From positions 52,987,899 through 53,051,898 of the forward strand of contig CP136067.1 of the NCBI GenBank assembly GCA_032622095.1: a stretch of DNA of 64,000 nt. The letters run 5' to 3'. The notes under the pieces are model-generated. The model had not been told where the DNA came from. It did not search any database and worked only from the letters and a program-made list of their open reading frames with translations. A program made the position numbers and the translations under genes. This DNA comes from Siphonodentalium dalli (taxonomy: Eukaryota > Mollusca > Scaphopoda > Gadilida > Siphonodentaliidae). Each line of letters starts with the position of its first letter. The first letter of the stretch is position 1. Shown in pieces: positions 10,545 through 62,135 of the stretch.

Positions 10545-10550
10545 TTTATT
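10545..10550 (-). promoter_or_regulatory. Candidate poly(A) signal AATAAA
   Basis: AATAAA on the minus strand, about 125 bases past the stop codon of the cysteine-rich gene. It is the first good hexamer downstream and implies a short 3'UTR. Confidence 0.5.
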
Positions 10551-10674: not shown

Positions 10675-10754
10675 TCACCACACCCGTATCATAACGTCCC
10701 ATGTCACAATGGCGATTGTCACGACGATGAATGTTCCTTTGGTTGTTTTTGTCG
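10675..10754 (-). CDS. Cysteine-rich gene, exon 8: hydrophobic tail and stop
   Basis: The acceptor is TTTTTTATTTCAG|CGAC. Entered in phase 1 it encodes Ala plus TKTTKG, then FIVVTIAIVTWDVMIRVW and TGA at 10675-10677. In this frame the exon is a textbook membrane or GPI-signal tail; the longer minus-strand frame over the same DNA is out of phase with every upstream exon. The frame is fixed by the chain of phase-1 junctions. Confidence 0.8.
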
Positions 10755-11459
10755 CTGAAATAAAAAATGTGTAATAATATTAATAAACTACATACTACGG
10801 ATGTCAGCTGATACGGTACTATGCATGCACCACCCCCCATGCTTTAATTTCACCCCACTCATTTTCTTCCTTGCTGTGTCCCTCGAATACTAAACAATAA
10901 TAAGACGAAACCGGTTGCCGTATATAATGAGCTCTCTACCAGCAAAGATAATTGTTCAACTGCGTTATTATTTGCATGTTCTTATACTGTTTCCATTGTA
11001 TGTTATTGCATTTCTTCTAGGAATCATTGTTGGTTGAAAAGTATTTTTATTTTATATATTTTCGTTTTATGGCTAACTGAATTGCTTTATTCCCTGATCC
11101 AATTAATAACATGAATGGATATTGAGAAAATGAAATTAATACAAAAGATGGACAGAATGACGAAAAGCATTTATGTACAAACTATACAGTGACCTCCCAA
11201 ACGTCTTCATCGTCACCACCGTCACCGTCACCATCTTCATCATCATGAGAAAATCCTCAAGATCATTTAGGTAAAGTGAGAAAAGCTGGGGGGGGGGGGG
11301 GGTGATATAATCTCGCCTTGTCGAACCCCAGACAAACATGGGAAACAATGGATGTCGTATTACCCATACGAACTTTCGATTTAATGCCGAAATTGGCATA
11401 TTAGTTTTTAATTGCACGTGTAAAATCCAATATATTTGGTTTTTAATTTTAATATTTAC

Positions 11460-11570
11460 CTTTGGATGTACAGTAATCAACACTCCCGGTTCCACAGCCC
11501 AGACATAAATGTCCGTCTGCACATTCGTCATGGCTCTGACAGATCGCTCCACCATCCTTGCTCCCTGTAG
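11460..11570 (-). CDS. Cysteine-rich gene, exon 7: Cys module
   Basis: 111 bases, phase 1-1, acceptor ACATTACAG|CTACAG, donor AAAG|GTAAAT. It encodes residues 232-268, with six cysteines spaced ICQSHDECADGHLCLGCG...DYC. This is the last cysteine module before the hydrophobic tail. A longer overlapping minus-strand frame (11136-11555) reads the same DNA out of phase and has no module character. Confidence 0.85.
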
Positions 11571-12869
11571 CTGTAATGTGTTTGAATGTTGTGAGAAGAT
11601 GGTGAAATAGATTCACGTCTGGTACGTGATTAACTCTTCCAGTTTTCATTTCGATTAGCAATGTGATATGATATACCTAGTTTTATGTTTATTGTTTTCA
11701 AAGCCTAATTTTAGTTAGAATTGTATGAATTGTGTGAATAGGCCACGCTCTAGAAGTGAATTTGTTTAATCTCAATATATACTGTTTTCGACCATGTGTC
11801 TGCAAATTTTGTCACGACCCCCCCCCTACCCCCTGGCTGATAAATGATAAACTGTTCGCCACTGGCAAGATGTATAACTCAACATCTAAAGATAAGTCTC
11901 GGAGATGTACACGCGAGATGGCGAGGTGCGCACACACGTGCCCCCGCCTGACGAGAGAAAGAAACAACGCCGAAATTCAACGCCACAATAGGAGATACCA
12001 GGAGAACGAGATAAGATAAAATATGACTTATGCAAATATGATTCACTGAAAATTTTGAAACTAAACGTGTGTGGCTGAAAAGACGCTTAAAAGTTTGTTG
12101 ATTTTTGTAATTAAATTTATTTGCTATATGTTTTCTAGAATCCATGCAAACAAACGACTGTGACGAACTGTGATTCTCGAAGGTTTCAAATCACCCCCGT
12201 GTACCTGGTATCACCAACCCGGAAGGTATCATCAACACCGGATTGAATGGGAAAGAAATATTCACGTATATAATATGCGAATATGTGTTTCTGATCGTAA
12301 AAGACACCAGACAAAATATTTGTGCGTCCATTTTGAGTGAGTTGTTTCAATAGTGTGTTTTCTTATTCTCTCTATAATTTTCGAGAAAATCTATTCATTG
12401 GTGTAATCGGTCAAGATTTCCATTCTATTTTTATACGTAACAGAAAAAATATATATAATTTACACTTCCTGTCGAATTTAGAAATACGTTGTAAAGCAGA
12501 CGAAAATTGGATAACAATTGAATGACAGTAACTCTATCACTCGCAGAGACTTTCACCAAGAGTCAAATGTCGGGGAGCTCAGAATGACTGGGGTGTTCAT
12601 ACAGGTCGTTCTGTCGCGCATTGATATTCGTTCACTATTATTCGGTAATTTTACCGAAAGTAAGCGACAGTGAAGTTATCATGCTTGAAAAACAAAATGA
12701 TATCTGTACTCTCTGTCTGGACACTAAATACGATATTTACGTTGCGGCAATTTTCCACTATTTAATTGGGAAGCATATAATAAATATATCGACCCATGTC
12801 TACAGTCTAACGTATACATTTGCTGCGTATATACCGTATGGCCAAGGACACTCACATACATATATTGGG

Positions 12870-13222
12870 TTTAAAGGGGGACTTTACCCTAAATCCTGCC
12901 ATGTTTTGGACCGTCTAATTTTATACTCAATAGAATATATGCAACAAATTAAATGAATATGAGCCACGGATGAGAGCAAACTACACTCATGTTCTCTACG
13001 ATGCCATCAACATGGTAATTATAATGAAAATTTATTTATGACTCCAGTTATAAATAAATTTTCATTATAATTACGATGTTGATTGCATCGTTCATAGAGC
13101 ACGTGAGTGTATTTTGCACTAATCCATGTCTCAAATTCATTCATTTGTTGCATATTTTCTGTTGAGTATAAAAGGAGATGGTCCCATACATTGTCAGATT
13201 TAGTTTACAGTACCCCTTTAAA
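12870..13222. mobile_element. Snapback MITE, copy 1
   Basis: About 350 bp that folds on itself almost end to end. The left end TTTAAAGGGGGACT pairs with the right end AGTACCCCTTTAAA, and the centre is a perfect or near-perfect stem (AATGAAAATTTATTTAT / ATAAATAAATTTTCATT) around a short loop at about 13045. The second copy is at 30370-30718. There is no coding capacity. The terminal TTTAAA may include the target site. Confidence 0.8.
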
Positions 13223-13409
13223 TTTCATCGGTATAATAATATTACCATTTCTGTATCTCTGCAAAAACAGTAACGGCAATAAGCATGCGTTCATAGCTTG
13301 ATAACTTTGTCATGAAATTCTTCGAGTTAGTATACCATGTGATAATCTACACGACACACTATACTTATGAGATGATATGTGTAACCACTATTTACCACAC
13401 GAGCAGTGA

Positions 13410-13629
13410 ACACGTTCGGCGCTGGACCAAAATTGTCTCTTGCCGTAATGTTTTTTTTTTCAAATGAAATTTTGTTATATAATGTAAAACTAACCACAGA
13501 CACAGGTAAAATGAGCTAGTAGCTAGTAAAGCAAGCTATAGTATTACTAATAATATAACTACATTTTTTTGTTAAATGAAAATATTTTTTGTCATCCGCA
13601 AATATGTCAAGCGGCAGTGCGAACCCTGG
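13410..13629. mobile_element. Short hAT-like element
   Basis: Begins CACGTTCGGCGCTGG and ends GGCAGTGCGAACCCTGG, approximate inverted ends related to those at 3119 and 34189. It is 220 bp of A/T-rich filler with no coding capacity and no clear target duplication. Confidence 0.35.
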
Positions 13630-13892
13630 TATGAAGTGAGATAAATGTATTTCTGTAAACTATCCTACAACTGACTGCCCGAAATTAGCCTTCATATACC
13701 GGGCAAAAGTCAATCGTGCGATTATTCGAGGCTCAAATAACGATACCACATTGGAAGACCCATAAGTTGTATAAGTTATACATATATTATTCAAAGGAAC
13801 TCAATACATAGCCCTTTGAGAAGAATTATATGATTATTTGCAAGGTAATTTTTATCAGCTGTGTGGACGTAGCCTCATTATATATGAAATAC

Positions 13893-14084
13893 CTTTGCAA
13901 ATTCCTCCGAGTTTGTCATTTATGAACATATATTCGTTGTGTGAGCCCAGGCATTGGCATGTATTGTCAGATGAGCAGTTGATTCGGCGCGTAATCCCCA
14001 TGCCACCAGAGGTTCCGTATGCACAGTTCCCGCCAGTTCCGGATGGGTGTGTGTCTGTTCCACTACACGATTCACCCTTCTTCA
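13893..14084 (-). CDS. Cysteine-rich gene, exon 6: Gly/Ser/Cys module
   Basis: 192 bases, phase 1-1, acceptor GACTTGCAG|TGAAG, donor CAAAG|GTATTT. It encodes residues 168-231 with six cysteines. The first pair is separated by a Gly/Thr/Ser-rich stretch (SGTDTHPSGTGGN), and a CQC motif follows NCSSDNT, which is also a possible N-glycosylation site. This is the longest of the modules. Confidence 0.85.
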
Positions 14085-14332
14085 CTGCAAGTCGGATAAA
14101 CATTAGCATTAAAGTGGGTGTATCAGTTAATATATACATTTCTGAATTTGGTCGATGGTCGTTGATGTAGCTTTACTTAGTTCGATTTCTAGTCAGTGAT
14201 GCCCATAACTATTGAAATACCATATTACTTTTGGGCCAGATGCGAATTATACCTATCTTCACAACTAAATAATTAAAAGTTATAGTGTATACATTTATAT
14301 CGTGATGGTCTTTAAATCTACTTTAAATTTGT

Positions 14333-14650
14333 GAGAATGATTAAAGATGCAATATCCGAATTAACGTTCCAAAATTATTATTTGTTTTCGTTGGGGGGGG
14401 GGGGGTATATGTTTCGAGTCTTCGGAACCTCCCATCATGCTCAGAGTGATCAGATATCGATTTTTGAAATCTATTATTTTTCACCGCCTGTAATTTTTGG
14501 CGGCCTGGATAAAATTCGACGAGAAGACGGTCTTGGACCAAATTGCGAATGAAGATGATGGATAACTCTAAAATCAAGTGGCTTTGTATTAGATATTTGA
14601 CAATCGGGCCAAATTTCGTTCAGCAAAATGTTGACAACTAACAGGTTTTA
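14333..14650 (+). repeat. 430-bp interspersed repeat with internal poly-G, copy 1
   Basis: Matches 23577-24035 and 54790-55222 (shared: GGATAACTCTAAAATCA, CAAATTTCGTT). It carries a run of about 13 G at the position where the 54-kb copy has about 14 and the 23-kb copy has only 5. It lies in an intron of the cysteine-rich gene. Class unknown; no terminal inverted repeats seen. Confidence 0.7.
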
Positions 14651-14956
14651 AGCAATTACATACTATAGATGACACATGTTTTTCACGAACATATTTTTAT
14701 CAGTATAAATACTGATATAAAATAAAAATCTCGGGGAGAGCTTTCCGATGAAAGGCAACAAGCCATATTTCCGACTAAATCCTGAAAAGTTACCCATAAT
14801 TCTGCTGTGTTTAAGGAGTCGATTACTTTGGGCATTACTGTATCAGTATTTCGTGTATGTGACAACCTATATTATACTTTCCTCCAAATTACGTAGACAT
14901 AATTTAGAAACTCGAATGAGCCATGTCCGTTTAAATACGAGTAAGGTATTCATTAA

Positions 14957-15132
14957 CCTTTGGCTGGAGATTCCTGAAATTTGGCGAAAACCCTTTGCAA
15001 TGCATTCTCTTATATATGCGGGTCTCCCATAGAGAATACATTGGCCTAACAATATTGACCTTAACCTTGTAAGAGAATGCACTGGCACGGGATATTTAAT
15101 GCTTCATCAGCGCAGCTCCCGTCATGAATGGG
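14957..15132. mobile_element. piggyBac-type MITE, short decayed copy
   Basis: TTAA flanks at 14953-14956 and 15133-15136. The left end CCTTTGGCTGGAGATTCC and right end GCTCCCGTCATGAATGG are related to the copies at 9163 and 59165. Only a partial ATGCATTCTCTTATATATGC palindrome remains. Confidence 0.6.
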
Positions 15133-15207
15133 TTAAAGAAAGAGTTAATTGTGACACAATTTTTGGAAGCTGGAAATTCAAACCATATTTAGTGTGTATA
15201 TTCTCAC

Positions 15208-15330
15208 GTTTGAGCCTGAAATTGCAGCCAGTCCCTGACGCGACGAAATCGGTGTCTCCACATTGGCACGTTCCACCACTGCAAGCCGGGCTCACCTCCT
15301 GTCCTGTAATCTCGTCGTGTCCAGAAGATG
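15208..15330 (-). CDS. Cysteine-rich gene, exon 5: Cys module
   Basis: 123 bases, phase 1-1, acceptor TTCAAACAG|CATC, donor CTCAAAC|GTGAGA. It encodes residues 127-167 with four cysteines in C-x4-C-x-C-x11-C (CSGGTCQCGDTDFVASGTGC). With the final two cysteines of exon 4 it would complete a six-cysteine module, so a structural unit probably spans this splice junction. Confidence 0.85.
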
Positions 15331-15385
15331 CTGTTTGAATTATATCAGAGGCAGATGTAATACTAATTTCCTTGTCACATTTTCA

Positions 15386-15450
15386 TTGTGAGTATGGAGT
15401 ATGGAGTATGGAGTATCGAGTATGGAGTATGGAGTATGGAGTATGGAGTT
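15386..15450 (+). repeat. 7-bp microsatellite (GAGTATG)n
   Basis: About nine tandem copies of GAGTATG with one TATCGAG variant, in the intron between exons 4 and 5. Confidence 0.9.
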
Positions 15451-15974
15451 CATTTTGATGATCATATGGAAATGCCAATTTGAGAATTAGCTATATATAA
15501 TTACAGAGATATCACTGTCCATGTAATGTATCGGTGGTATAAGTAAAGCGAAAAGTGTTGTCTTCGTATCTTTTCCAAGAGTTATCTATCCTTGAAACGC
15601 GTCAACCAACCTATGAGTTAACCATCTGCGCCGTTCAGCAAGCGTTTTATTTAATAGTTCCCATTATTTTTGCATACTTAAACAATACAAATAAGAACGA
15701 TGAGATAGGACTACAAGGAATAAACATATTTACAGTTAAACAAAATGCGCCGGAAAGGGGCAGCCGGTTATCTTGTATGTTAGCGTATTTCCAGAACCTA
15801 TGAAGACAACACCTTCAGCATAAGTAAATTGTAGTATTAGAGTTGAACATGGTCCCCTGTGACGAATCACTTAACACTTGCCAGGAAAATGTGTCAGGGA
15901 TTTAACATATATATAGCCAAAAAGACTGTTTCTGAGACATGATGTAGTACCGGTATAGCTATACATGTACCTAC

Positions 15975-16160
15975 CAAGGCATGTTTCGGTTGTGCACGCC
16001 TCTCCAATCTTCTTATAGCTTGTTCCCGCGCATATGTTAACTTGCCATGTTAACCCAGACGGGCATTCGCATAAGTCGGTATTCGCATTGCAGATCAGTC
16101 CGGCGAATGTTATACACTCCTGTGTGTGGGCGCATTCTTTCCCATATGTCTGCCATTTTT
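15975..16160 (-). CDS. Cysteine-rich gene, exon 4: EB-like module
   Basis: 186 bases, donor CCTTG|GTAGGT. I place the acceptor at ...CTCATTGAAG|AAAAATGG because it gives a phase 1-1 exon divisible by three, like its neighbours. The AG 11 bases further in (GGCAG|ACATAT) has an unsuitable phase. It encodes residues 65-126, eight cysteines: ECAHTQEC, then ICNANTDLCECPSG, then C...ACTTETC. The spacing C-x5-C-x7-C-x6-C-x-C-x10-C is the clearest EB-like pattern in the protein. Confidence 0.85.
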
Positions 16161-16204
16161 CTTCAATGAGATCAAAATCGTTATGATACGATGCATATTA
16201 AAGG

Positions 16205-16252
16205 GACTCGGTGCCTTCGCAGTGGCTTCATGCGAAAGGCACAAAAGTCCGT
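16205..16252. other. Near-perfect short hairpin
   Basis: GGACTCGGTGCCTTCGCA and TGCGAAAGGCACAAAAGTCC pair around a nine-base loop. It lies just outside exon 4 in the intron. It could be a cruciform or RNA hairpin, or the core of a decayed palindrome. Confidence 0.6.
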
Positions 16253-16404
16253 AAAATAACAGACTATCATCAACAATTACATAAACACGAAATGTGCCCC
16301 AACGACCCCAGGGTCGAATCCGCTAGTAACCCACACACAAACACACCACTATGTTCGTTTCTTAAATTTATATAGCTTCATTATGAGTTATTCCCATAAC
16401 AAAC

Positions 16405-16882
16405 CTGAGTGTATTCGAATTTATTTTCAAAAAATCTGCCGATAAGTTGAGACTAGCCCACGCAGCACATTCAGGCAGCCAAATATAAGATTTCCAAGCA
16501 CTTAGTAACGATAATGTCAGATTTGACACAAAATCAGTCAGAATTTCTCTAGCCACTGTTTGGCCGATTATATCAAATTTTATTCTCGTTATACATATAT
16601 GTGCCATAGGTATTAGGATATAACATTGTGCACAGAAATAAAGTTTTATGAATAATAACGTAACCTAAATATGTAAATATTTATTTTTAAGAAATGAATG
16701 TAATGGGTGTGTGTTATTTGTGGGATACAGCACTGTTGTTCGTGGTACGCATTGTGTGAACCACGAAGCTGAGTGTATTCGAATTTATTTTCACAAAATC
16801 TGCCGAAAATTTGAGAATAGCCCACGCAGCACTTTCATACAGCCAAATATAAGATTTCAAAGCACTTAGCAACAATAATGTG
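16405..16882 (+). repeat. 113-bp direct duplication, 365 bp apart
   Basis: 16405-16517 and about 16770-16882 share most of their bases (GAGTGTATTCGAATTTATTT ... CCAAATATAAGATTTC). Intronic, origin unknown. Confidence 0.75.
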
Positions 16883-17021
16883 ATTTATATAAATAACTGA
16901 CTTCAGATGCAATTCGGCTGAAATATGAAACACGCCCAATTATTCTGCTGACCGCTTTTAGTGATTAGGTCAGATTACGTCAACAATTTGTGACGTCGTG
17001 TTACAGTCTGTGTGTTATTTA

Positions 17022-17152
17022 GGAGATAAACATACCATGTTGAGTTGTACATTATGGGATTCGAGCATGTAAACAGTTAAGCCGGCGAGTTCACAAACTG
17101 TTTTCATGCTCGAATCCCAGAATGTACAACGAAACAGGGTACGTTTATCTCC
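17022..17152. repeat. 131-bp foldback, 57-bp arms
   Basis: GGAGATAAACATACCATGTT to AACAGTT pairs with the reverse complement at 17096-17152, with about six mismatches and an 18-base loop. Each arm contains GGGATTCGAGCATG. It lies in the intron between exons 3 and 4. Confidence 0.8.
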
Positions 17153-17321
17153 ATTGTAATTCAATCTAGCAAGGAATTTGCACACAAAAAACTGTATAAA
17201 AAGTATCATTTAGTCATTTTCATGACACGAATCGAGACTTTCATTTCGCCGTTGTCACCGTGCACAAATCATTGTGCGTTACTCGGAACACTGCTCCGTA
17301 ACCATTTCCTGTGGGCGGGTT

Positions 17322-17520
17322 GGCTCGTTTCGCTACTCCGTTCTGCGCCGATGAAATTGTACCGTGGCACATTCAGATTTGATGCACGCTGAAGCGGCCG
17401 ATGAACGGTATCTATAGACAACAACGCGCGGGTGTGCTCGTTTCGCTACTCGTTCTGTGCCGATGAAATTTGACCGTGCTACATTCAGATTTGATGCACG
17501 CTGAAGCGGCCGATGTCGGT
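17322..17520 (+). repeat. Tandem duplication, 113-bp spacing
   Basis: CGTTTCGCTACTC to GCTGAAGCGGCCGATG occurs twice, at about 17325-17403 and 17438-17516. GC-richer than the flanks. Confidence 0.75.
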
Positions 17521-17779
17521 GAATCGAAAACGAAAGTTAGCCGCTCTCGGCCAATCAGAATGCTTGTTTTTAGTGACAAATACTCAATTGAATTACAATG
17601 TAGTATTAATCGGGTCACCACTATGTGGTTGACAATTCACCGAACAGGATTTAATGTAACACAGACGGGCTTTGTAAATATCATGGCATGAATCTCTATA
17701 CTCTGGCTACGGTCGTTGATATCATATTCCAACACCCCAATACCTAATTTTTAATAAGCATAAAAACATAACAAAACGT

Positions 17780-17843
17780 ACTAAGTCCTAATTAGGAGAT
17801 ACTAAGTCCTAATTAGGATATACTATATCCTAATTAGGAGATA
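17780..17843. repeat. TCCTAATTAGGA palindrome cluster
   Basis: Three copies of the self-complementary 12-mer TCCTAATTAGGA about 25 bases apart, each preceded by ACTAAG or ACTATA. It sits 105 bases downstream of exon 3, in the intron. Confidence 0.8.
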
Positions 17844-17947
17844 GTATTTTTTGTTAGGTGGCACTAATACGCTTCCATGGAATATGATACCTACTGATGA
17901 AGACAGAACATAGATTCGTGGGATGGAATGTAACATATTCTGCTTAC

Positions 17948-18094
17948 TTCTGCATTTCCCACTCGCAGTGGTGAATGTAGCGTCAGGACATGAGCAGTCC
18001 CCTATTTTGCATCCGGGAGTCCGCTTTAAGCAAACCTCACCCAGTGTCCTATCACAATCATGGTTGTCTAGACACTGATTACCATGTCCACGAA
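17948..18094 (-). CDS. Cysteine-rich gene, exon 3: EB-like module
   Basis: 147 bases, phase 1-1, acceptor TTTTTCATCAG|TTCG, donor TGCAGAA|GTAAGC. It encodes residues 16-64 beginning VRGHGNQC, immediately after the signal peptide. It has seven cysteines: C-x5-C-x7-C-x6-C-x4-C-x-C-x11-C, including GDCSCPD. The C-x5-C-x7-C start and the late CxC match exon 4, supporting module duplication. Confidence 0.85.
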
Positions 18095-20628
18095 CTGATG
18101 AAAAATAAAAACACATTATTAGATTAGATTATACATTACATATGTTCACAATAACAACCTCCCTTCTTCATTCTCTGGACGCACCCACTGCAACATTAAT
18201 CCTTTCTTTACTGATTATATTATCCCATTAACAGTTATACGTTCGAATGGAATCGGGAGAGTTTAAACATATTTTATTTGCTCAATGAATAATATAAACA
18301 TATTCAAGGGCAAAAGGGATTGGATGACAAGTGCTGTCACTTACAATAACATTCTCTCCCCATTACCAAAACACTGAATATAAACAAATCAAACGTTAAC
18401 AAGGACAAGGACATTATGTTATGACAATATAACTATGTTCAAGGACATGATGTTATGACAATATAACTATGTTCAAGTAATGACAACTAACAGTAGAATT
18501 GTTTGGATTGTTTCATATGTTATGTATAAGAGTAAGAAGAGTGATACAAAAAAACGCACGATAGAGTGACTGAAATTAAGCAAACGGTAGAGATTGATAG
18601 AGAGAGGGAGAGAGGGGGAGAGTGTGTGTAAGAGAGAGAGAGGATGAAGAAATGGGGAGATATAAAGGTATTGCACGTGCATGGTGTCGACAGCTTTACT
18701 GGGTTCGATATATATATAACATCAAGGGCGAAATATCACCAATTGTTAATTCAATTGTTTCTTCAGTTCGCACTACACATTTCAGACGTCGAGATCAAAA
18801 CGTTTTCTTTAATGCACCGATGCGCGTAATTAAAGATTACAGTATTCATATCGTCCCTTATATATATGGGTATCTTATATCTGGAGAGGTGTTTACGAAA
18901 TGTAAGCAGACGACAGAGAGACGAACATATATTACAACTACATAAGGATTCATATTTATTCAAGTTTGTGGTAAATGTTCAGATATAAGTCCAACAAACG
19001 TCACATTACCGTTTGATGAACTTATAATCAAATCAATTATAGAACAAAAGGGTTAACCGAATGATTTTTGACATTCTGATTGATGAACGTTTTCGATAGA
19101 GCGTCCCCACAAAGGAGGGCGTCACCCATACACCCTGAATCGTGAATACCAGTCGACATAATTCTGCGTACCCGTTAAGACAAAACGAAGTAAAGACATA
19201 TATAGTAACTAGAAGGTGACCCGACTTCGTCCGGGCTATTCAAAAACCAAATTTCAAGTCGATTGCTCCACCCGTTACCGAGATCTGGTCTGCGCATGCG
19301 CGAAGCTGGCGTCGCACGGGCTCGGCGACCCGATAAAATTCGTATCCGGGGCAAGATACATTCACATACCAAATTTCAAGTCGATAGCTCCACCCGTTTT
19401 CGAGATATATAGCCCAATGGCATTTGCGGATACCTCGGCCGGTGATGAGTTAACGCGACATCGGCCAGTTAAGAGTTAACGCGATCACGTCACGATATGT
19501 TGATGGCGTAATATATTTACGCAATGATTTTCGATGAGCGAAGCATGGTCCTGCGTTCTTCCCGATAATTAAGGTAGAAACTTTAAACGTACACAGGCGT
19601 GTGATACATCATTGGAAAGATGAAGCGCCACAGATTCTAACCGTGCAAATTATATGACTGGCAATTTATTATTCGCGCTATATCGAATCGATTTGTGAGC
19701 ACCGAACTGAAATATATTAGCGCAAAACGGCGTAAAAACAGATTTGACCTCGGCACGTGAAAAGTTGACCTCGGATCTGAAAATCAATAGGCCTATGTTA
19801 CTCCTGACCCGAAAATACCCCCACATACCAAGTTTCATCGAAATCGGCTGGGCCATTTTAACGGGATAATGGTAAACTCTTTGGGAAAGTAATAACCATA
19901 CAGTAAGAGGAGTGAGACTGAATTGCATCAAAATATGTCATCTGAGTCGGGGGGGGGGGGGGGGGTTGTCATCCCGACACCTGCTTACCATCGTGGTACT
20001 ATACCAGAGTAGCATTATGTATATATCAGTAACGCAGTAATTCTGGGATTGTTGACAGCACGGTGTATGTGTTACAAGATATTATATTGACATATAATTG
20101 GTGAAAGTGTTGACTTTTCTTGAAATTGGCTTGTGGCAATCACAAGTAGTGCATGGTGCATTCTATGACTAAATTTTATGTGTCTAACTTTGGATTTTGA
20201 TGCTGAGTAAAACACTTGTATTGCGGCTGATGGACCACCCACAACCCCCGACCAACGTGTCAAAAATTTTACCCGCCGTGTCTGGTTTAAGAAATAATCC
20301 AGTACTCAAAATTTAATTAATTTGGTACCCTAAATTCAATGTATACCAGTGTACTGTTGAGTCTTGAATATTATACATTAAACCCATTTACCGCGGTTAC
20401 CAATTAACGGAGAGTGAAACCTGCATACCACGTAAAACTCACAAATCCCGTGTGCCCAAAATGGGAGTGCTACCCTTGCAAAACACATGAGAAATATCTT
20501 AAGCCACACTAGTAAACTGGCAACATTTTCAGACTCGCTTGCTAAGATTGGGATATAGCCACGACAAATTTATATTACATTATTAATCAAATCATGGAAT
20601 TTGAAGAAATATAGAATGTTCCACTTAC
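18095..20628 (-). other. Intron 2 of the cysteine-rich gene
   Basis: 2.5-kb intron. It contains a tandem 39-bp duplication at 18400-18480 (ATGTTATGACAATATAACTA), GA-rich text at 18600-18640, a two-unit repeat at 19215-19440 (ACCAAATTTCAAGTCGAT, GCTCCACCCGTT in each half) and a run of about 17 G at 19949. No coding exon was recognised. Confidence 0.6.
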
Positions 20629-20668
20629 CCCTTGCCACGAATAATATTGCCAACAACCACGTTGATAG
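20629..20668 (-). CDS. Cysteine-rich gene, exon 2: signal-peptide core
   Basis: A 40-base exon, acceptor GTATTTCCAG|CTAT, donor AAGGG|GTAAGT. It is entered in phase 0 and left in phase 1. It encodes LSTWLLAILFVAR, a typical hydrophobic signal-peptide core, lacking only an initiator. The frame is closed upstream by a stop inside the intron, so the methionine must come from another exon. The ATG GAG ending at 28023 supplies it exactly in phase. Confidence 0.8.
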
Positions 20669-21009
20669 CTGGAAATACACAAATAGTAAAGATGTAACGA
20701 ATTAATTGTTGCCTTAAACGCAACAGAAATTCGTGAACTATATAAAATTCACCATACCTTTAATGCACGAATGGTTTTGTCAACACATCCGCCTTTTGGC
20801 AGCTGACAATTCGTGTCTATATAAACTTCTTCTCCCCTATAAAGGTTTCTCCAGATATACGTATAATTATCTGAAAAATTGTAACCGATCTAATAGTAGT
20901 CACACGTTCGCTGAGTTTGGTCAACGTCGCATTGTTTTGCGCATATTACGTTACTGAGAATCTCCAAAATGTGCATCAAGTTACCCAATACGGGATTTTA
21001 AATTAGTCT

Positions 21010-21690
21010 TCTTCCCAGGTAACCTAACGCACGTTTTGGCGATCGTTATGTCATTCAGGATCTAGACAACGTGCGTTATTATAGCAACCCATGATCTCCA
21101 AAACGTGCGTTATTATAGCTACACATGATCTCCAAAACGTGCGTTATTATAGCTACCCATGATCTCCAAAACGTGCGTTAGGTTACCGGGGATATAAATA
21201 AGACGTGACTTACATTACCAATGATCTCCAAAAACGTGCGTACGGCTATGTTTTGGAGATCATGTATAACATACAACGCACGTTTTGGAGATCACGGATT
21301 ATTTAACTCACGCTTTGGAGATCACGGATAATTTAACGCACGCTTTGGAAATCACGTATAGCATATAACGCACATTTTTGGAGATCTCACGGGTAACCTA
21401 TAACGTGAGTTTTAGAGATCACGTATAACATATAACGCACGCTTTGGAGATCACGGATAATTTAACGCACATTTTGGAGATCACGGATAATTTATTCACG
21501 ATTTGGAGATCACGGATAATTTATTCACGATTTGGAGATCACGGATAATTTATTCACGATTTGGAGATCACGGATAATTTATTCACGATTTGGAGATCAC
21601 GTATAACGCGCGTTTCGGGGAGCACGTGTTATATATACCTCATATTGTTTTGGATATCCCGGGAATCATAACGCCCGTTATTGGAGATCC
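21010..21690. repeat. Head-to-head tandem array around GGAGATC / GATCTCC
   Basis: From about 21060 to 21245 the unit reads GATCTCCAAAACGTGCGTTA with a 34-bp period (TATAGCTACCCAT spacer). From about 21250 to 21690 the same unit runs in the opposite direction (AACGCACGTTTTGGAGATC), ending in a 29-bp subarray (TTATTCACGATTTGGAGATC) repeated four to five times from about 21480. The switch of orientation makes the whole block a large foldback. Arms built from short tandem repeats recall Foldback/Galileo transposons, but no terminal boundary or transposase is visible. Confidence 0.8.
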
Positions 21691-22199
21691 CGGATAAAAA
21701 AAATTCAACAGTGAAAATTCCATGCCTGAAATTGTTCTGATAGTTTGATTTTCCAACCGATATTTAATGTGGAATATGTTGTTTTCCGACAAAATGTCGA
21801 GTATTTAACTACTTTAGGGTAAAGTTTTCATACTTAAAGGCACGTGAGGCCTTAGTTGTCGAAAATATTCATATTTGTTCCAATCACCGTAAACAGAAAA
21901 GCATTAAAACGCATACAGTTTCGTTCATATATACCATGACCATATAGCATGACCATCACGTAAACAGCATGTTATCATAAAGATTTACTATATTTTACCT
22001 AAGCAAGAGCATGATTGTGTTACATAAGACAGCACAATGCTGCTGGCTAATCACACACAAATGGCATAAACGCTCTTTATTCGTTCCATATCAGGAATTC
22101 ACCAACAAAGAACGCTCTTTATGTTTACCATCATAATATAAACAAACACCAGAAAAGTAACTTTTTATGCTTTTGTTTACATAACAATGGTCAAATATA

Positions 22200-22790
22200 T
22201 GACAATAACATACTGTTTATGCGATATTTCTTATTTGTATACGGACAAAGTCTGTCTACATTTTGTTGTTCTTTCTGTTTGTGGCGGTTTTTGACGGGTG
22301 GAAATATTTTCACAGGATACCCACCGCCAAGGCCAACCGTACCTTTAAATAAAAGGTTTTTGGACCGTCCGAAAAAATTACGACTACAAACAGCTATTCG
22401 TATTAGTACCTCTCGTCGTTCATTGTGTGAAAGGTGTCTAATATTAAAAATGTTACCGTCTTGTAAATTACACACGTTGGAGTTTTATAGTATTGGCCCC
22501 AGTGAGTCTTACGCAGGAAAAGGGAATATATCTCCAGATTCAGATTGTTTATTAACATAAACACTCTCAAGGAGCAGTATGTACAATGGGCATAGTATGT
22601 AACACATATAACATGTGGATGGTACATGGATATATGTATATAGCATCAACAGAAACAAAAATTAAAATGTTTGCATGAGGCGTACACGCATTGAATCCAT
22701 AATGTTTTCTATTACGTTCGTGTCTTTGTATTTATATATAGTTCTTCGGTTCTGGAGGAAATAAAATATCTATCTATCTATCTATATATC
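22200..22790 (+). mobile_element. Possible retroelement 3' end with (ATCT)n tail
   Basis: Ends GAGGAAATAAAATATCTATCTATCTATC. A polyadenylation hexamer followed by a tetranucleotide tail is typical of non-LTR 3' ends. A 113-codon frame at 22219-22560 lies upstream but shows no recognised domain. Confidence 0.3.
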
Positions 22791-23576
22791 GATCTACACG
22801 TTCATATCTATCTCTCAGTCTCAACATTTGTTACAAATTGAGAAGAACTCGCCAATAGTATCAATGATCAAGTTGTACTGGGTTGAATTGTCATTCCGCA
22901 TTAGGTATGACGCTCATCAAGTATTCTCTTACGAAACCAACGATATGTTTATGGAGGCGATTGATAATTAATCGAATGTTATCTCTTGGGATCGAAGCCA
23001 AGGCGTAATTCTTATGTATTCATGAGGGCGAACCGGAATGATCGCCGTAACGAAGCTGATGTGTCAGAGCAGTCAAATCATCATTCTTTCGACCATCGCG
23101 TGTTTTAATTAGGGTTTGTTTTGTGAAATAAATTATGAATGAAAATAGTGTTGCAATGCGTACCCATCCTATGATACTCGCCACCGCCCTCGATGCTAAC
23201 AAAGGCTTATCTATTCTGTTTTATGTCCGGCTATAGTCACTAATCTTTACCTGTACGATTATTACATGCCAAATGACAATGTTTTATATTATGACGGCAG
23301 CACTGCAATATACACTTTACGTCGAAGTGCATGGTATATCTTATGTTGATACATTGGAAGAACGCCATTAGCCAAGCAGGGATATCGTTATGATCAACGC
23401 AGGATGACGTGATACAAGACGAGACAACTCACATACATGTGTGCCTACAATCAACACCAAACTGGAAGAGGCCAGTAATAATCTGGTCACAAAAAATCGA
23501 GTCCTCAATAGAACGTGATAACATAATGTAACACATTTGTGGAAATTGTTTTGAGGGAGGCTTACAATTGTTCTTT

Positions 23577-24035
23577 GAAGATGAATTATCCGAATTAACG
23601 CTCCCAAATTACTATTTCTTTGGCTTCGGGGGTAAAAAATATCTAATTCGAGTCGAGGAACCCACCCGTCAAAGCTCAGAGTGATCAGAATTTTGAAGTT
23701 TGTTATTTCTCGAGATGTGCAATTATTTGTGGCCCAGAAACCAGTCGTCCAACCATCGGTCATGGATATAATTGTGGATGAAGAATGGATAACTCTAAAA
23801 TCAAGTGGTAATACGGCCAAATTTCGTGATACTCAAGTGATAATACGGCCATCTTTCGTTGAACAAAATGTTGATAAATAACACGTTTTGGGAAATTTGA
23901 CACCATAGTTGACAGAGGTTAGCATTATATTGTTGCATTAATCGATTATGATAACTAAAGCGTATTTTGAAGAAATGTTGTTGTTGTTGAATCTTGATGA
24001 TATGGGGACCGTCTGATCGGATTGCGTACCTTTAA
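23577..24035 (+). repeat. 430-bp interspersed repeat, copy 2
   Basis: Extended copy of the family at 14333 and 54790. It continues through GTTGTTGTTGAATCTTGATG and GGGGACCGTCTGATCGGATT, which the 54-kb copy also has. Its G run is reduced to five. A 150-codon minus-strand frame across it is an accident of the repeat. Confidence 0.7.
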
Positions 24036-24054
24036 CTTCTCAGTGGAGTCGTGT

Positions 24055-24303
24055 ATATGCAAGTCTGGAGTGTACAAATGGCATGTGTGTGGCGAATATG
24101 GGAGTGATAAGGGAGTGACCGTATGGCCAATGGCGAGGTGGTATACAGGGTATACTGATATGGCCATTACTTGGTGAGGTGGATACGTATACACCTGGAG
24201 TGTCTACATGGTCATGAGTTGGGTGTATGACGTGTATGTGTATATATCGGGTGGCTATATGGTCATGGGTGTGGCCAATAGTATACGTCATTATCAATGA
24301 AGA
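24055..24303 (+). repeat. Degenerate TATGGCCAT...GGTGAGGTGT minisatellite, left part
   Basis: Loosely 36-60 bp units containing GTATGGCCAATGGTGAGGTG or ATATGGTCATGGGTGTGGCC. It is continuous in style with 25141-25502 and 25838-26470 and is interrupted by a LINE tail. Confidence 0.7.
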
Positions 24304-25140
24304 CGCCCCTTTGTATCTGACATATCTCCTACCAGCACGCTCCAGAGAACGATCGGAATATAACTTTAAATTTCCAAATAAATTGTATTCCTATTTCGCT
24401 AATATTGAACATTTTAAACAGTCATTTCTCCCATCCGTTGTTCTGGAATGTATCAAATTACCTGTGTATATAATCAATGCAACCTCCATTTCAGATTTCA
24501 AAGCCAATATAGGGATTATAGACCCAATAACTACCCCCCCCCCCCTCTTATTTTTATACAGGAAAAATGAAAATTAATACAATACACTGTAAAATCCGGA
24601 ATCATTGTAGTGATCTCCGTTCGGATTGTTTGATAATCACATATCCGATTCGCCTATATGCCCCTGTAACTTAGACATTGAAGACGCCAATCACTATTTT
24701 CATGTATGCCCTTTATTTATGAATCAGAGAATTGACTTCTATCGAAATCTAAGCATTAATGGCTTTCAATCATTAAAAGCAAAAATTTCTTCTAATGGGG
24801 TTAAAGGTATATCAAACCACAAGAACACTACTCTTTTTCGCATTACTCAATCTTTCATAGCTAATACAAAGCGTTTTGAACAATCCCATGTATGATATCA
24901 TTGTTAGTCTCGCCACTCATCTTTCAAACTCACTGAACTCTAGGCTTTTTTCATAACCGAGATTGGCCGACATCCGCAGCACACACACTCTGCACTACTA
25001 TTTATAAACACTATGCTACATCTGCTATGTATTTTTATGTATGTTCCATGATTGTGTCAGGAGAGGGGCAACTTATAAGTTTTGTAACTTGTGCCCCGAT
25101 CCTTATGTATATTATCTTTATAGATACATTAAAATATGTT
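24304..25140 (+). pseudogene. LINE 3' end (RT C-terminal region and 3'UTR), 5'-truncated
   Basis: Two plus-strand frames, with a frame change around a C-run at 24535-24545, encode the C-terminal part of a non-LTR reverse transcriptase protein. The second (24626-24895) has the characteristic cysteine/histidine motif ICPCNLDIEDANHYFHVCPL and ends IANTKRFEQSHV. About 240 bases of 3'UTR follow, with an imperfect hairpin (GGGGCAACTTATAAGTTTTG ... TTGTGCCCC). The element has lost its endonuclease and catalytic RT core and is dead. A related C-terminus is at 34430-34749. It is inserted in the minisatellite, within intron 1 of the cysteine-rich gene. Confidence 0.7.
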
Positions 25141-25502
25141 TAAAGTAAAGTGACCGTATGGTCTATGGTGAGGTGGATTGCAGGGTATCGGTATGTTCTG
25201 AAGGCTGCATGGCCATTGGTGAGGTGTATATGTATACATGGAGTGACTCTATAGGCATGGATGGGGTGTGTATGTATATCTTTAGTGGCTATATGATCAT
25301 GGGTGTGGCCAATAGGTATACGTCTTGGAGTGACCGTATGGTCAATGGTGAGGTGGATTGCAGGGTATCGGTATGTTCTGAAGGCTGCATGGCCATTGGT
25401 GAGGTGTATATGTATACATGGATCGAGTGACTCTATAAGCATGTGTGGTGTGTATATGTATATCTTTAGTGGCTATATGATCATGGGTGTGGCCAATATG
25501 TG
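25141..25502 (+). repeat. Minisatellite, central part with 180-bp duplication
   Basis: Two near-identical units of about 180 bp (from 25146 and from 25326) share CAGGGTATCGGTATGTTCTG and CTGCATGGCCATTGGTGAGG. Each is itself made of the smaller degenerate unit. Confidence 0.85.
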
Positions 25503-25838
25503 TTTATCACATAATTTGGCCATAAAAGCAGTTTCATAATTATCGGTAATAGACACGTTTAATATCAGCGCGTGCGATGACGTCACGGCGTTCTTCAAAT
25601 AACTTGCGATCGCTGTAGTTTATGATTGTTGTTTTTGATGAATATTTCGCGTTGCTTCGGGTTTATTTGATCATGTGATAAAAGGTATCTCACACTCGTC
25701 CTATTTTATACGTAATTTATCAACCTCGTCCTCTAAATTCTATTTGAGCCTCGGTAAACATCGGCTCAAATCGAATTTAGTGAACTCGGTTGATAAATTC
25801 CGTATAAAATAGAAACTCATGTGAGATACTCTATATAT
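25503..25838. mobile_element. Hairpin element, copy 1 (full length)
   Basis: Starts TTTATCACATAATTTGGCCA and ends in CTCTATATAT. The copy at 47991-48327 is almost identical, and a truncated one lies at 51278-51432. The 3' part (25685-25829) is a long imperfect palindrome whose arms include GTATCTCACACTCG...TATTTTATACG and centre on GAGCCTCGG / CGGCTC. The first half contains TGACGTCA (a CRE-like palindrome) and GCGATCGC. No coding capacity. The insertion splits the minisatellite. Confidence 0.8.
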
Positions 25839-26470
25839 GAAGTGACTGTATGGCAAATGGTGATGTGAATTGGTAAACAATGATATGACCATGATATGAA
25901 TTGGTAAACAAGGATATGACTATGAATGTGGTTATGAGTATTCAGTCGGTGGCTGGATAGTCATGAGTGAGGTGTATATGCAAGCCTGGAGTGTATGAAT
26001 GGCCGTGTGTGTGGGGGTATTGGCATATTTAGAACGGCTATATGGCCATTGGTGATGTGTATATGTGTACTTGGAGTGACTCTATTGTTATGGGTGTGGT
26101 GCATATGTATATATTGAGTGGCTACATGGCCATGGGTTGTGGCAAACAATATATACATGTAGTGATTGTATGGCCAATGGTGAGACGAATGTGCATACAA
26201 GAAGTAACTGTTGTCATGAATGTGGTGTATAGAGTGATTATACGATCATGGGTGAGGTGTAGAAGTATACCCGATGTACATACATGGTGACTCATGACTG
26301 TATAGTCAAGTGTGTGTGATGTACGAGTATACCCAAGTATGGCTGTATGGTCATGGGTGAAGTGTATGTGTGAAAAGTGACTGGCTACATGGTCATTTGT
26401 GTGGTGTTTATGTATACATGGAGCGAGTGTATCACCATGGGTGGGTTGTACAGGTGTACATTTGGGTGGA
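25839..26470 (+). repeat. Minisatellite, right part
   Basis: Continuation of the degenerate repeats (GTATGGCCAATGGTGAGACG, ACATGGTCATTTGTGTGGTG). Both boundaries with the hairpin element are sharp. Confidence 0.7.
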
Positions 26471-28022
26471 TATCGCTTCCTAGAATATCTCAGGGATGTA
26501 TTAATCGATATAGAGGTAATGTCAGAGAGTTCTAACTTCTACGTCTTGATGGTGGTTTATATGCACAATGGGGGAAATGTTTTTCCTGATATTCGTCAAT
26601 CAATTTCGATGCCAATGAGCCAGTCTTTTGATGCTATTGAGCCAGAGTATCCACATAATGTGGCCCGTTGGAGTTCAGTTTCAAAGTTCTGTCCATTTCC
26701 GTACAAAAACATGGTCAGAATTCCGAAAGATGATTTTGGCAAAAGACCATACTGCGCCCTTTTTAATGAATTAGTCATGCCGCATAAGGTACATGGAAAA
26801 CCAGAATAGAAAATGTAGTTGTCAATTGATTAAGTAACATGGTTAATACAAAGTGAGTCACAATGTGAATAATGTTCGGGATATATCTGAAAAATCTACT
26901 TTTTAAAATCATGTTTGGATGCCATTTTGTAAACCATCTTGAGTAATTTTTACCGATTTTGGTGTAAAGTTTGTGATAGAAAAAGTCCAATAATTCTGGT
27001 AATGCCAGTGTTTGAAATAGCAAAAATTAACCAAGGTGCATCATAAACTTGTATGCAGTTGAATGGCACGGTGGGGCAATATTTACAATTTTCCATATTT
27101 TGGTCGCCATTTTGAGCTAAAGAGACAATTTGTGTACCATTGTGTTGGAATATTCATAAGAATTGGAATTCCTCACTTAGATTGCACGGTTCTTCCCATT
27201 GCTTGACGAAATATGACAAGAATACAACTGTGATTTTTTGGTGAAATTTATACCGCGTTCTGTAAAATCAAATTTTTGAACTGTGTGTATTGTCTCAACT
27301 AGTTCGAAGTATATATTTTTCGCCAGGCAGAGCCTCGCGAAAAATCATACTTCTAACTACTAACAAACGTATCGCTTCTCATCGGGGAAGCCATTGCTAT
27401 GGTACAGGAACACCCCTAGGTAAGGAACCTTAATATCATACTCACACTCACCCTCCCATTTCACTCCCCCCCCCCTTCAAGCTTTTTGTTTTGTTTTGCA
27501 AACATTCGATAGAGAAAGCTATAATGTGGCTGTCAGAATACGAACGCAAAATGGTTATAAAATGCATTTTACTTCTCGTGTAGTTAGCGTTCTGAAAGGT
27601 TTTGTATGCTGGCACCATATGGATTTCTGTGACGACATGACCTGCAAATTATACAAATTTGCCAGTGTGTGAAGGCTATTTATGGGTTGGTTTAGATTGT
27701 CAGACTCTAGAACTCTAAAAAGAGAGTTTCACCACGATTTTACATTTGTCAGGCAAGAAAACGTGAAATAAAAACTCTGATAAAACGCGTTCACGCTTTC
27801 GCTGCACAAGAAAAAAACCTGCATATTTTAAAGAGCGTTTATATTATGCTGTTTCGTGCTAGTTCTCGTAATATTATTTTTTATTGCCAATGTGATGCAA
27901 GTAATTTAAATTTTCCATCTGCCTGCTGAATGGAAATTTGGCATATAGCAGAACTTATATGGTAAATGTGGTGAATAACCCGATGTGGGATCTTTAATTG
28001 ATATAACAAAAAAAGTACTCAC

Positions 28023-28300
28023 CTCCATATTCCAAAATTCAATTGACTACACGGTCGAATCACCAGTTTCCAGTTGACGAGGATATCACACGAAGTAGAT
28101 ATCGTCTCAATGCGTACGCATTCAAAGAGAAAGTTGATTCTGCCAATCCAATTAGTGATGACGCGCTTGTCCAACTGTGAACATCCAACACACCCGTATT
28201 TTGTTGTGGTTACGATCGACTTAACCGGGATGGAATATCGGACAGCCAATAACCGTGGCGTTTCAATGACAAGCAACCTTTCTTTAATCTTTATTTCGAA
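28023..28300 (-). CDS. Cysteine-rich gene, exon 1: 5'UTR and first two codons
   Basis: The minus strand reads GGAATATGGAG|GTGAGTACTT. The donor is strong. The last six exonic bases are ATG GAG (28028-28023), with A at -3 and G at +4, a good start context. They join in phase to exon 2, giving MELSTWLLAILFVARG, a convincing signal peptide. Only these six bases would be coding. The upstream limit is unknown; 28300 is approximate. An overlapping upstream frame begins with an ATG at 28274-28276 and runs across the exon in another phase, so the exon could instead code for something else. Exon and donor are seen; the link to exon 2 across 7.35 kb is inference. Confidence 0.55.
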
Positions 28301-31735: not shown

Positions 31736-32690
31736 TTAACGTTGTTGTTGTTGTTGTTGTTGCTGTTGTTGTTGTTTTTTATGTTGTTGTTTACCTCGTA
31801 GAGGACTATTGGCGCGATCAGTTAACACAGTATTTGTTTGTGAATTATCCTGTCTGTAGTTTGGCTTGATGTTAGGCGAAAATTGCTTATTGTCGACGTA
31901 TATTCTGTCAGAAACAACTCGAGCTTTGTGTCCCTTATTTCGGGTGTCTATTGCAATCGGATTTAGCATTTCTTTCCTATACTCGTTTACCGAGGTGGGA
32001 TAATGTGATCGTTTATGTAGTATTTCGTTCCATTCAACAAACCACTAGCTTTCCCTATCGACTCCTTATCCTTCAATTTACTGAATTTAACAAGAATTGG
32101 CCGTTTCCCCTTGTCGTCAAATTTTCCCATACGCCTTACTTGCTCGAATTCTATTATCCTTACGAATATGTAGTGATTGCCTGATGAATTCTTCAAGAAC
32201 AGTTTCAGTTGTAATGTCGTCCTTGTCCCTTTCGAATTCATCTACGCCGCTGAATATTAAATCACAGTGCATTGCATCAATTTGTAAATTTGTTACCTGC
32301 TCAATCACATACTGTGTTCGTCTATCCATGAGGTCGAGTTTGGCACTTTTCTGGTATTCTTCCACTTTCATCTGTTTTTGAGCTTGGTTTGTATCGTCCA
32401 GTCTTTGTTCAAGAATGTCCTGTTTACATTCAATCGAAGCTAGCTACTCTTCCCGACAATGCTCTGACAGACTGTTCAATCGATGTGAGTTTATGATTGA
32501 TTTCTGATTTTGAATTTATGGTCCATACTGTCAGAATTGAAATTATGTGATTCAGCTTTGAGTCGGTGTCACCTCCGCTGCACATAATGCTATTCACTTC
32601 CAAGTTACTATTGTTCTGAGTGTTTGATTTAGGGTGATTATGAATGTGGGTATCCATACCTCCTCCTGTCGACGATCTGGTTGGGTTCAA
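31736..32690 (-). pseudogene. LINE ORF1-like remnant with polyQ tract
   Basis: Three overlapping minus-strand frames (32690-32430, 32371-32117, 32241-31987) and a fourth (31969-31736) form a broken ORF1 protein. In order they encode a Ser/Asn-rich N-region, a coiled-coil-like segment (INHKLTSIEQSVRALSGRV, then RRTQYVIEQVTNLQ), an RRM-like core (DLIFSGVDEFERD), a basic segment (VRRMGKFDDKGKRPILVKF) and a C-terminal part (NKGHKARVVSDRIYVDNKQF). The last is typical of CR1/L2-type ORF1 proteins. A GTT repeat at 31740-31786 gives about 11 glutamines. At least two frame changes and an in-frame stop make it non-functional. Confidence 0.6.
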
Positions 32691-32748
32691 GTATAGATTG
32701 ATGAGATCATGTTCACTTTGGATCGACCCTGCATTCCTTTGAAGTTAA

Positions 32749-34189: not shown

Positions 34190-34399
34190 TTATGTGCAAA
34201 AATAAATCATTCACAATACAATTATTTTTATAATGGAAAACAAATGCCCTGTGGCCAAGTAAGTTACCCAATTTCATGGCACACATTGGGGGTCACCTAG
34301 CACTCAATTGTTACAGACAACTATAGTTATTTTCCATTGACGACAGTGTTAGCTATAAGTCCCGCCGGCCATGGGTTAAGCCCATTTGAACTTCAAGTG

Positions 34400-35400
34400 G
34401 TCACTTTTCCATTATAACATCATCCGATACACCACTCGGTGACAACAAACATGCCCGCCTCAGATTAAACTGTAGCAATTTGAAATACCACAAATATTCT
34501 AACTTCGTTTCCGACCAACCCATGTGTACCTGTGGAGGCTGTGTTGAAGTAGAAGACACAGAACATTATCTACTTGAATGCCAATTATACAATGCACAGC
34601 GATTGTTATTTATGAACGAAGTATCTTATATATATAACTTCACCGCCAATATACTTCTACATGGTTCTAATGAACTATCGCAGGAAGATAACATAACGAT
34701 TTTCCGAGAAGTTCAGAAATACATTATTCGAACAAAAAGATTCAAATAAAATCTCGACCACAAACCAAGGGCTTCCACTTGAGCCACACACATGCATATC
34801 ATCTATCATCTAACAGTTACCAAATCGACTCATATCGTCAAAAATCGCGTGAGAAATAGAAATATTAATGTTGATGTTATTAGATATTCATACAAATCCA
34901 AATGATAGTGGTGTCGGCTCGGATGCAAAAATGCTACACAAAATTAGTGTATAAATTAAAAACAATAGCTTATCAGTTACACTCCCCACCTCCCCTCCAT
35001 ATACTGCATATCAGACTCGCCCAAACGTTTGATATGTCACCTCACACTCTTGTCTATACCGATCTATACTTCGTTCCGCTATACTAAATCTATTTTCAAT
35101 CAATTTCTTTCTATTTCTCCATAAGAAAAAACAATCTCATTTTGATATATCTATCGATCCAGCCCACACGGTGAGTAGCTGATTAACATATATACCAACA
35201 ACGATCTTCTAAAATTATTATGAACACAATTACCTAATATTATGTCATCAGTCTCACAGTGTGGGCTTATTTACACGTAATCGGAAACGACCCCCATAAG
35301 CTTTATGCTTGATGTCGGATCCCCTTCCATACAACCAATATTCATGCTTCATATTTTGTAACATGCACTGTATTTGAATTATATGGAATAAATACTGTTT
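34400..35400 (+). pseudogene. LINE 3' end (RT C-terminus and 3'UTR), 5'-truncated
   Basis: The plus-strand frame to 34749 reads HARLRLNCSNLKYHKYSNF, then MCTCGGCVEVEDTEHYLLEC, a well-formed CxC...H...C C-terminal motif of non-LTR RT proteins, ending IIRTKRFK and a stop. It is better preserved than 24304-25140 (same motif and ending TKRF). About 650 bases of 3'UTR follow, closing near GGAATAAATACTG. The endonuclease and RT core are absent. It lies just left of the 30-bp array. Confidence 0.7.
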
Positions 35401-35564
35401 ACATCAACGTGCCCATTGCGGTATTTTAATGATAATCTTGCATTTCCACAACTGCCCCATTATAATATACTGCACAGACATCAGCAGATACCCAGACCCC
35501 TTCCATAACTCCGGGACAACACCAGACTCTTCTTGGCCATCTGAACAAAAATGAGCGCCACATT

Positions 35565-57414: not shown

Positions 57415-57582
57415 AGCCATAACTAGAGGTGTAACAGCGTCAGCCATAACTAGGTCTAACAATCCCTTGATGATTTATAATATTTATTTTCGGTGGGCCA
57501 TAAAAAGAATTCAGTGGGCCACATTTTTATGAGGATGCAGGTGTCTGAGAAACAGAACATTAATTTTTGTTGTATCACTTAC

Positions 57583-62063: not shown

Positions 62064-62135
62064 CACATGACCATTATTGTCTTACAGACTGCTTGCAAAT
62101 TTTAAGGTGCACATGTTCAGAAACTTTAGCAAGAA

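Follow-up and report, generated by a model that had tools for sequence, protein, structure and literature searches.

The 64,000-nucleotide stretch of DNA analysed here (the window) carries on its minus strand an eight-exon gene that, so far as sequence alone can tell, is real, and whose spliced product runs to 294 residues with 30 cysteines in an uninterrupted frame. It is very probably a single animal gene; its product begins with a signal peptide, continues with a small ectodomain in which EB-type six-cysteine modules stand in tandem, about four and a half of them, and ends in a short hydrophobic segment, the putative membrane anchor. A preliminary description of this DNA had arrived at the same product length and at the same five cysteine-rich exons (E1 to E5), with the lengths and phases given in Table 1.

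Table 1. Features of the gene, in order of transcription (positions in the window)
Feature	Position	Strand	Length (nt)	Phase	Content
First coding exon	28023..28028	-		donor phase 0 (7.9 bits)	ATGGAG, Met-Glu
40-nt exon	20629..20668	-	40	0 to 1	hydrophobic core of the signal peptide, LSTWLLAILFVAR
E1	17948..18094	-	147	1-1	7 Cys; module M1
E2	15975..16160	-	186	1-1	8 Cys; whole M2 (6 Cys) and the first two Cys of M3
E3	15208..15330	-	123	1-1	4 Cys; the last four Cys of M3
E4	13893..14084	-	192	1-1	6 Cys; module M4, long loops
E5	11460..11570	-	111	1-1	5 Cys; M5, degenerate last module, no C-x-C
Last exon	10675..10754	-			hydrophobic stretch GTFIVVTIAIVTWDVMIRVW and stop
AATAAA, polyadenylation-like signal	10545..10550	-			124 nt past the stop

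The borders of the five module exons are GT-AG throughout, and when the splice sites of each cysteine-rich open frame were ranked with no phase imposed and all cysteines of the frame retained, the top acceptor and donor coincided with those described before in all ten cases, every one of them in phase 1. A scan for cysteine-rich AG...GT intervals found eight on the minus strand, five of them 1-1 (exactly E1 to E5) and three asymmetric, and seven on the plus strand, three of them 2-2 and none 1-1; its thresholds were chosen once the acceptor of E3 and the donor of E4 were known to be weak, and the scan of the real DNA skipped the tandem array at 35.4-39.6 kb, so that the count is somewhat favourable to the model. 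Among 20 random sequences of 60 kb (order-1 Markov), 17 lacked any 1-1 locus and the other three had 1, 2 and 1. Moreover, GC content was higher in all eight exons (0.45-0.56) than in their flanks (0.33-0.40), the first exon having only 6 nt. As for duplicated exon DNA, no exon was overlapped by any of the repeats of at least 30 nt listed for 10.6-28.1 kb.

The linker between modules measures 11 residues within the unspliced E2, and 10, 11 and 11 residues at the E1/E2, E3/E4 and E4/E5 junctions. Such regularity across spliced joins speaks independently for correct junctions, to be read with the fact that 7 of the 20 possible exon joins also produce a linker of 10-11 residues. These regular linkers at three junctions, together with 294 codons spread over eight GT-AG-bordered exons with neither stop nor frameshift, speak against a decaying gene or fragment whose frames are open by chance or after a recent loss and which makes no protein. 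We regard that reading as very unlikely, even if the missing C-x-C pair of M5 and the weak acceptors of E2 and E3 (-2.0 and -2.1) would fit it. The acceptor of E5 is weak as well (-0.3), and these three sites count against the gene model.

The exons, their phases, the cysteine pattern, the hydrophobic ends and the EB match can be read directly from the DNA letters. The modules repeat in tandem in a regular cysteine register, with C-x-C in four of the five modules, M5 being the exception, and linkers of 10, 11, 11 and 11 residues. M1 adds one cysteine to the six-cysteine pattern, and M2 is spaced C-x5-C-x7-C-x6-C-x-C-x10-C. An EB-like spacing had been noticed earlier, with a profile search of the product proposed as the check, and this search bore the likeness out: the Pfam EB profile (PF01683; gathering cut-off 24.3 bits) matched the full protein at 21.8 bits (E=2e-4) and the protein minus its signal peptide at 20.3 bits, both under the cut-off, and a 60-residue segment from the end of E1 and E2 at 27.0 bits, over the cut-off. 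In a small control at the length of the ectodomain, none of five shuffled ectodomains sent to Pfam, out of eight made, matched the EB profile (two full shuffles and three with cysteine positions fixed), which speaks for a specific match and not one owed to cysteine content. E1 alone gave a weak EB match (E=0.31). The spliced end of E2 plus E3, that is, module M3, also matched weakly over the junction (E=0.023), and neither half did so alone. For the unit formed by the end of E3 and E4 there was no Pfam match, and for the E4/E5 unit no EB match. Altogether, the product looks like an EB-module protein with a full-length score under the cut-off, a new and unremarkable member of a poorly studied family, so that a family can be named where the preliminary description could offer none.

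EB modules contain four disulphides each, and EB proteins are also called 'prion-like-(Q/N-rich) domain-bearing protein 25'. A loose EGF cysteine layout accommodates the M2 spacing too, and the modules might be EGF-like, or have another six-cysteine fold, with a superficial EB match. We find this quite improbable, as no EGF family came up in Pfam with E-values up to 10 allowed (the filters remove most matches above about 0.1), and the two PROSITE EGF patterns had no match in the product. Pfam hits to zf-UBR (E=0.055 and 0.022) were treated as noise, though they lie near the EB score of the E2/E3 unit, and so were those to carboxypeptidase inhibitor, albumin I and WAP. The best PDB sequence match, the GIP receptor (E=0.014), was not credited, and none of the NCBIfam profiles matched the product. 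Folding E2 alone (mean pLDDT 54.6) and a MAFFT alignment of E1-E5, with one invariant column, were both uninformative.

All five module-bearing exons lie between phase 1 introns, an arrangement that had been presented as noteworthy. In the account of metazoan exon shuffling given in PMC8001218, all domain types involved are class 1-1, and the symmetric phases seen here are the common, ordinary inheritance of animal extracellular modules. The gene resembles those class 1-1 shuffled proteins in its symmetric module exons and in the phase 1 intron after the signal peptide, and differs from them at E2/E3, where exon and module borders do not coincide and an intron splits M3. Exon shuffling, or else internal duplication with intron gain, may have produced the gene. 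The claim of one cysteine module per exon fails at the E2/E3 border. Introns fall at differing places within the modules, and symmetric phases by themselves are no proof of interchangeable exon modules.

In this line, the earlier proposal that any module could be included without damage stands for the reading frame, which survives every skip, but not for the modules. None of the three single internal skips (E2, E3 or E4) retains both whole modules and a linker of 10-11 residues: each disturbs the cysteine pattern, M3 is left incomplete when either E2 or E3 is lost by itself, and the linker grows to 15 residues when E4 is missing. Joining E1 to E4 would give a linker of 7. In line with the earlier proposal, the gene may be read as a multi-isoform receptor in which E1 to E5 are combined differently by tissue to give many ectodomains. 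Besides the symmetric phases, the two tandem acceptors of E5 (11570 and 11564, a distance of 6 nt) and the 11-residue linker kept when E1 is joined to E5, with E2-E4 lost together, agree with it, but the broken M3 and the altered linkers make it rather improbable in our opinion. The joins E2-E4, E1-E3, E1-E4, E1-E5 and E3-E5 also failed to match Pfam EB (none of five), a weak control, as the natural E3-E4 and E4-E5 joins are equally unmatched. Free exon-by-exon alternative splicing is not supported; clean removal would be possible for E1, for E5 and for the block of E2 to E4. A lineage-specific cell-surface receptor made of five EB-type exons with introns in three different registers, in which clean omission is limited to E1, to E5 and to E2-E4 as one block, seems to us highly unlikely. 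If it were true, regulated loss of these parts would shorten the ectodomain at one end or the other, or reduce it to two modules, and one gene would yield a small, set series of receptor lengths.

With regard to the ends of the protein, Kyte-Doolittle profiles place hydrophobic segments at both the N-terminus, as a signal peptide, and the C-terminus. An in-frame stop lies six codons upstream of the ATG at 28028, with no earlier in-frame ATG. Three candidates for the 40-nt exon lay in the interval from 28.0 to 18.1 kb, acceptors scoring below 0 being excluded; the one chosen ranked best by its hydrophobicity and its splice sites, both of which are good (donor 6.1 bits), and brings the product to exactly 294 residues. 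A signal-peptide exon ahead of the modules had been announced, and a putative signal peptide lies there, but it needs two exons (28028-28023 and 20668-20629). Phase 1 introns close to the signal cleavage site are a known animal pattern (PMC1626468). Under strict thresholds no single-exon signal peptide was found, and loose ones gave 27 candidates from 1065 ATGs, including one at 18414-18345 (MSLSLLTFDLFIFSVLVMGRECY), about 250 bases ahead of E1. This exon might serve, from an alternative promoter, instead of or besides the pair at 28.0 and 20.6 kb, which would leave the same gene with another beginning; its hydrophobic score (3.16) and its phase 1 donor (1.8 bits) lie among the values found for the accepted exons. 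We judge it unlikely, since the 20.6 kb exon has the stronger donor, and since this candidate shares bases with a 34-nt tandem repeat (18406-18477) and brings in an odd cysteine.

At the other end of the gene, the tail exon described earlier is hydrophobic (mean Kyte-Doolittle 1.79 over 19 residues) and ends in the stop; the segment is short and contains Asp and Arg. By eye, such a short tail with Asp and Arg inside is a poor anchor. The earlier label of secreted gene is upheld in the wider sense of a secreted or membrane protein, and the small cysteine-rich product is probably exported and membrane-held. The 294-residue protein would be exported, its modules held together by disulphides and its short hydrophobic C-terminus anchored as a transmembrane segment or possibly a GPI signal, and outside the cell the ectodomain may serve as a compact stalk, or as a surface that binds proteins or makes contact with cell surfaces, in a protein that would lack a signalling tail of its own.

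A six-frame scan of the window for at least five cysteines in 35 residues, run without the 35.5-39.6 kb array and with E3 and E4 under the threshold, recovered E1, E2 and E5 as well as other stretches, none of which was judged EB-like by eye. Rfam at gathering scores and a tRNA scan found nothing in the window. Three pattern matches in viral contigs and four in prokaryote contigs were not confirmed as relatives, as expected for an animal gene. The bivalve Ostrea edulis has EB-domain orthogroups (OG0002210 and OG0013280) that have expanded in tandem to 31 and 11 copies (PMC9679249); the likeness seen is one of domain type and, unlike those tandem copies, a second copy was not seen by eye in the 64-kb window. 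This oyster genome paper, which terms the EB domain uncharacterised, was the only one to bring the EB term and bivalves together among the papers listed for EB modules, whose titles and abstract openings make no mention of EB intron phases. The present gene has little significance alone; it adds a single EB-module gene structure, worked out with care and with a module-splitting intron, that can aid annotation of that domain. Predicted proteins of Anisakis are described with three to five EB modules each, EB being often associated with Kunitz domains (PMC5763927). Our product shares with them the tandem EB-type cysteine pattern and differs in that no Kunitz domain was found, the last module is degenerate, M4 is long-looped and without a Pfam match, and the C-terminus is hydrophobic.

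The five minus-strand, cysteine-rich exons that the preliminary description had placed in this gene (E1 to E5; 147, 186, 123, 192 and 111 nt), each said to begin and end in phase 1, were all recovered with those sizes and phases. When AG and GT sites were listed for each of the five open frames, keeping all cysteines, imposing no phase and scoring with approximate splice-site weight matrices, the top-scoring acceptors and donors were the described ones in 10 of 10 cases, all 10 of them in phase 1. The announced hydrophobic tail exon was also present, stop included, with an AATAAA 124 nt downstream of the stop, and GC content exceeded that of the flanks at all eight exons of the gene. Because cut-offs were set once the weakest accepted sites were known and the real scan skipped the array at 35.4-39.6 kb, counts of cysteine-rich exon-like intervals are support for this exon set and not a test of it: the minus strand held eight, five of class 1-1 (E1 to E5) and three asymmetric, and the plus strand seven, none of class 1-1. 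Of 20 random sequences of 60 kb, generated by an order-1 Markov model of the minus strand, 17 lacked any 1-1 locus and the remaining three had 1, 2 and 1, with 0 to 4 loci of any phase per sequence.

Coordinates of coding exons, and of cysteine modules (M1 to M5) along the product
Feature	Position	Strand	Signals	Content
First coding exon	28028-28023	minus	strong donor, 7.9 bits	ATGGAG
40-nt exon (candidate)	20668-20629	minus		
E1	18094-17948	minus	flanking AG and GT; phase 1-1	M1, seven cysteines
E2	16160-15975	minus	flanking AG and GT; phase 1-1	M2; two cysteines of M3 (split)
E3	15330-15208	minus	flanking AG and GT; phase 1-1	four cysteines of M3
E4	14084-13893	minus	flanking AG and GT; phase 1-1	M4
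E5	11570-11460	minus	flanking AG and GT; phase 1-1	M5, five cysteines, without C-x-C
Last exon	10754-10675	minus	stop	hydrophobic stretch
API5 exon	63315-63611	minus		Pfam API5 1.8e-12; solved API5 structures
API5 exon	58812-59069	minus		Pfam API5 1.8e-10; solved API5 structures

At the 5′ side, where the signal peptide would be encoded, the only position described was the outer end of the gene, 28028, which is an ATG. Beyond the donor that follows it, a scan for exons running from phase 0 to phase 1 gave three candidates, after dropping acceptors scoring below 0, a filter that the accepted E2, E3 and E5 would fail; the 40-nt exon ranked first of the three by hydrophobicity, acceptor and donor. 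A single exon at 18414-18345 is a possible alternative start, and inclusion of the 40-nt exon reproduced the 294-residue product originally described.

More independent than these site and interval checks is the regularity of the linkers, the residues between the last cysteine of one module and the first of the next. The linker inside the unspliced E2 has 11 residues, and those across the spliced junctions E1/E2, E3/E4 and E4/E5 have 10, 11 and 11, the long end of E3 offsetting the short start of E4. This backs the junctions, in a supportive way and not as proof, because 7 of the 20 possible ordered joins of E1 to E5 yield 10 or 11. As the cysteine positions indicate, introns therefore fall at differing places relative to the modules: one residue past the last cysteine for E1/E2 and E4/E5, five residues past it for E3/E4, and inside a module for E2/E3. 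E5 carries tandem acceptors (cattacag/ctacag, 11561-11572) 6 nt apart, and use of the second would make the linker two residues shorter.

The suggested resemblance to EB modules (PF01683) was supported by the profile search: the full product matched Pfam EB at E=2e-4 with 21.8 bits, under the 24.3 cut-off, and a segment made up of the E1 end and E2 reached 27.0 bits, over it. EB appeared in none of the five shuffled ectodomains submitted to Pfam (eight were made), a control at full ectodomain length; one of them gave Peptidase_M13 at 0.21. The end of E2 and E3, each without any Pfam match alone, gave EB once joined (E=0.023, profile positions 16-49), a match that is weak since zf-UBR also matches the join at 0.055. 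E1 alone reached EB at E=0.31, and the E3/E4 and E4/E5 units had no EB match in Pfam. Pfam listed no EGF family, and the two PROSITE EGF patterns had no match in the product. We read the product as about four and a half EB-type modules, two of which are too divergent for the profile.

Most likely, the signal peptide would export this protein, the hydrophobic C-terminus would anchor it, and a small ectodomain, predicted to be rich in disulphides, would serve contacts with other proteins. Alternative inclusion of any module, as first proposed, holds for the frame, which no exon skip would disturb, but not for module integrity and linkers: single skips of E2, E3 or E4 give a broken module or linkers of 17, 7 or 15. 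Given the split M3 and these linker changes, free inclusion therefore holds for frame only, and the losses that would be clean are those of E1, E5, or the whole E2-E4 block (linker 11). Fold prediction of E2 alone had a mean pLDDT of 54.6 and lends no structural support to export, anchoring, disulphides or binding.

The types of domain recruited by exon shuffling in animals are reported to be all of class 1-1 (PMC8001218), and phase 1 introns are in excess at the signal cleavage site (PMC1626468). The phase 0 intron of our gene is not covered by the latter source, because its phase 0 peak just past the start codon lies at codons 1/2 in proteins without signal peptides, and this intron follows codon 2. 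Also reported are two oyster families with an 'uncharacterized EB domain', for which Ostrea edulis has 31 and 11 copies versus 1 or 2 in Crassostrea (PMC9679249), and nematode proteins that each carry three to five EB modules (PMC5763927). The gene thus looks like a further member of the already known EB-module proteins. That its source is an animal is indicated by the structure of the gene, by the match to EB and by API5 nearby.

Upstream on the same strand lie exons of API5 (apoptosis inhibitor 5; 57500-63611, minus). Two more, near 58.65 and 57.66 kb, are presumably API5 exons by their sequence motifs. A 30-nt tandem repeat of ~129 copies (35564-39459) is open in several frames; two sets of ORFs in it, at 36161 and 38007 (1846 nt apart), look near-identical, as if by block duplication. 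LINE-like pieces seen by eye at 40281-40922 (plus), 32120-32744 (minus), and 24614-24892 and 34390-34746 (plus), none credited with a Pfam match, resemble reverse transcriptase, ORF1 and a C-terminal zinc knuckle. Satellite-like arrays of 23-nt units and 20-nt units lie at 44281-44856 and 62139-62449. A short motif containing AGAGAATGCATTG, also seen by eye, occurs at ~14985-15090 in an intron of the EB-type gene and in an API5 intron near 58.45 kb, and is perhaps a small dispersed mobile element.
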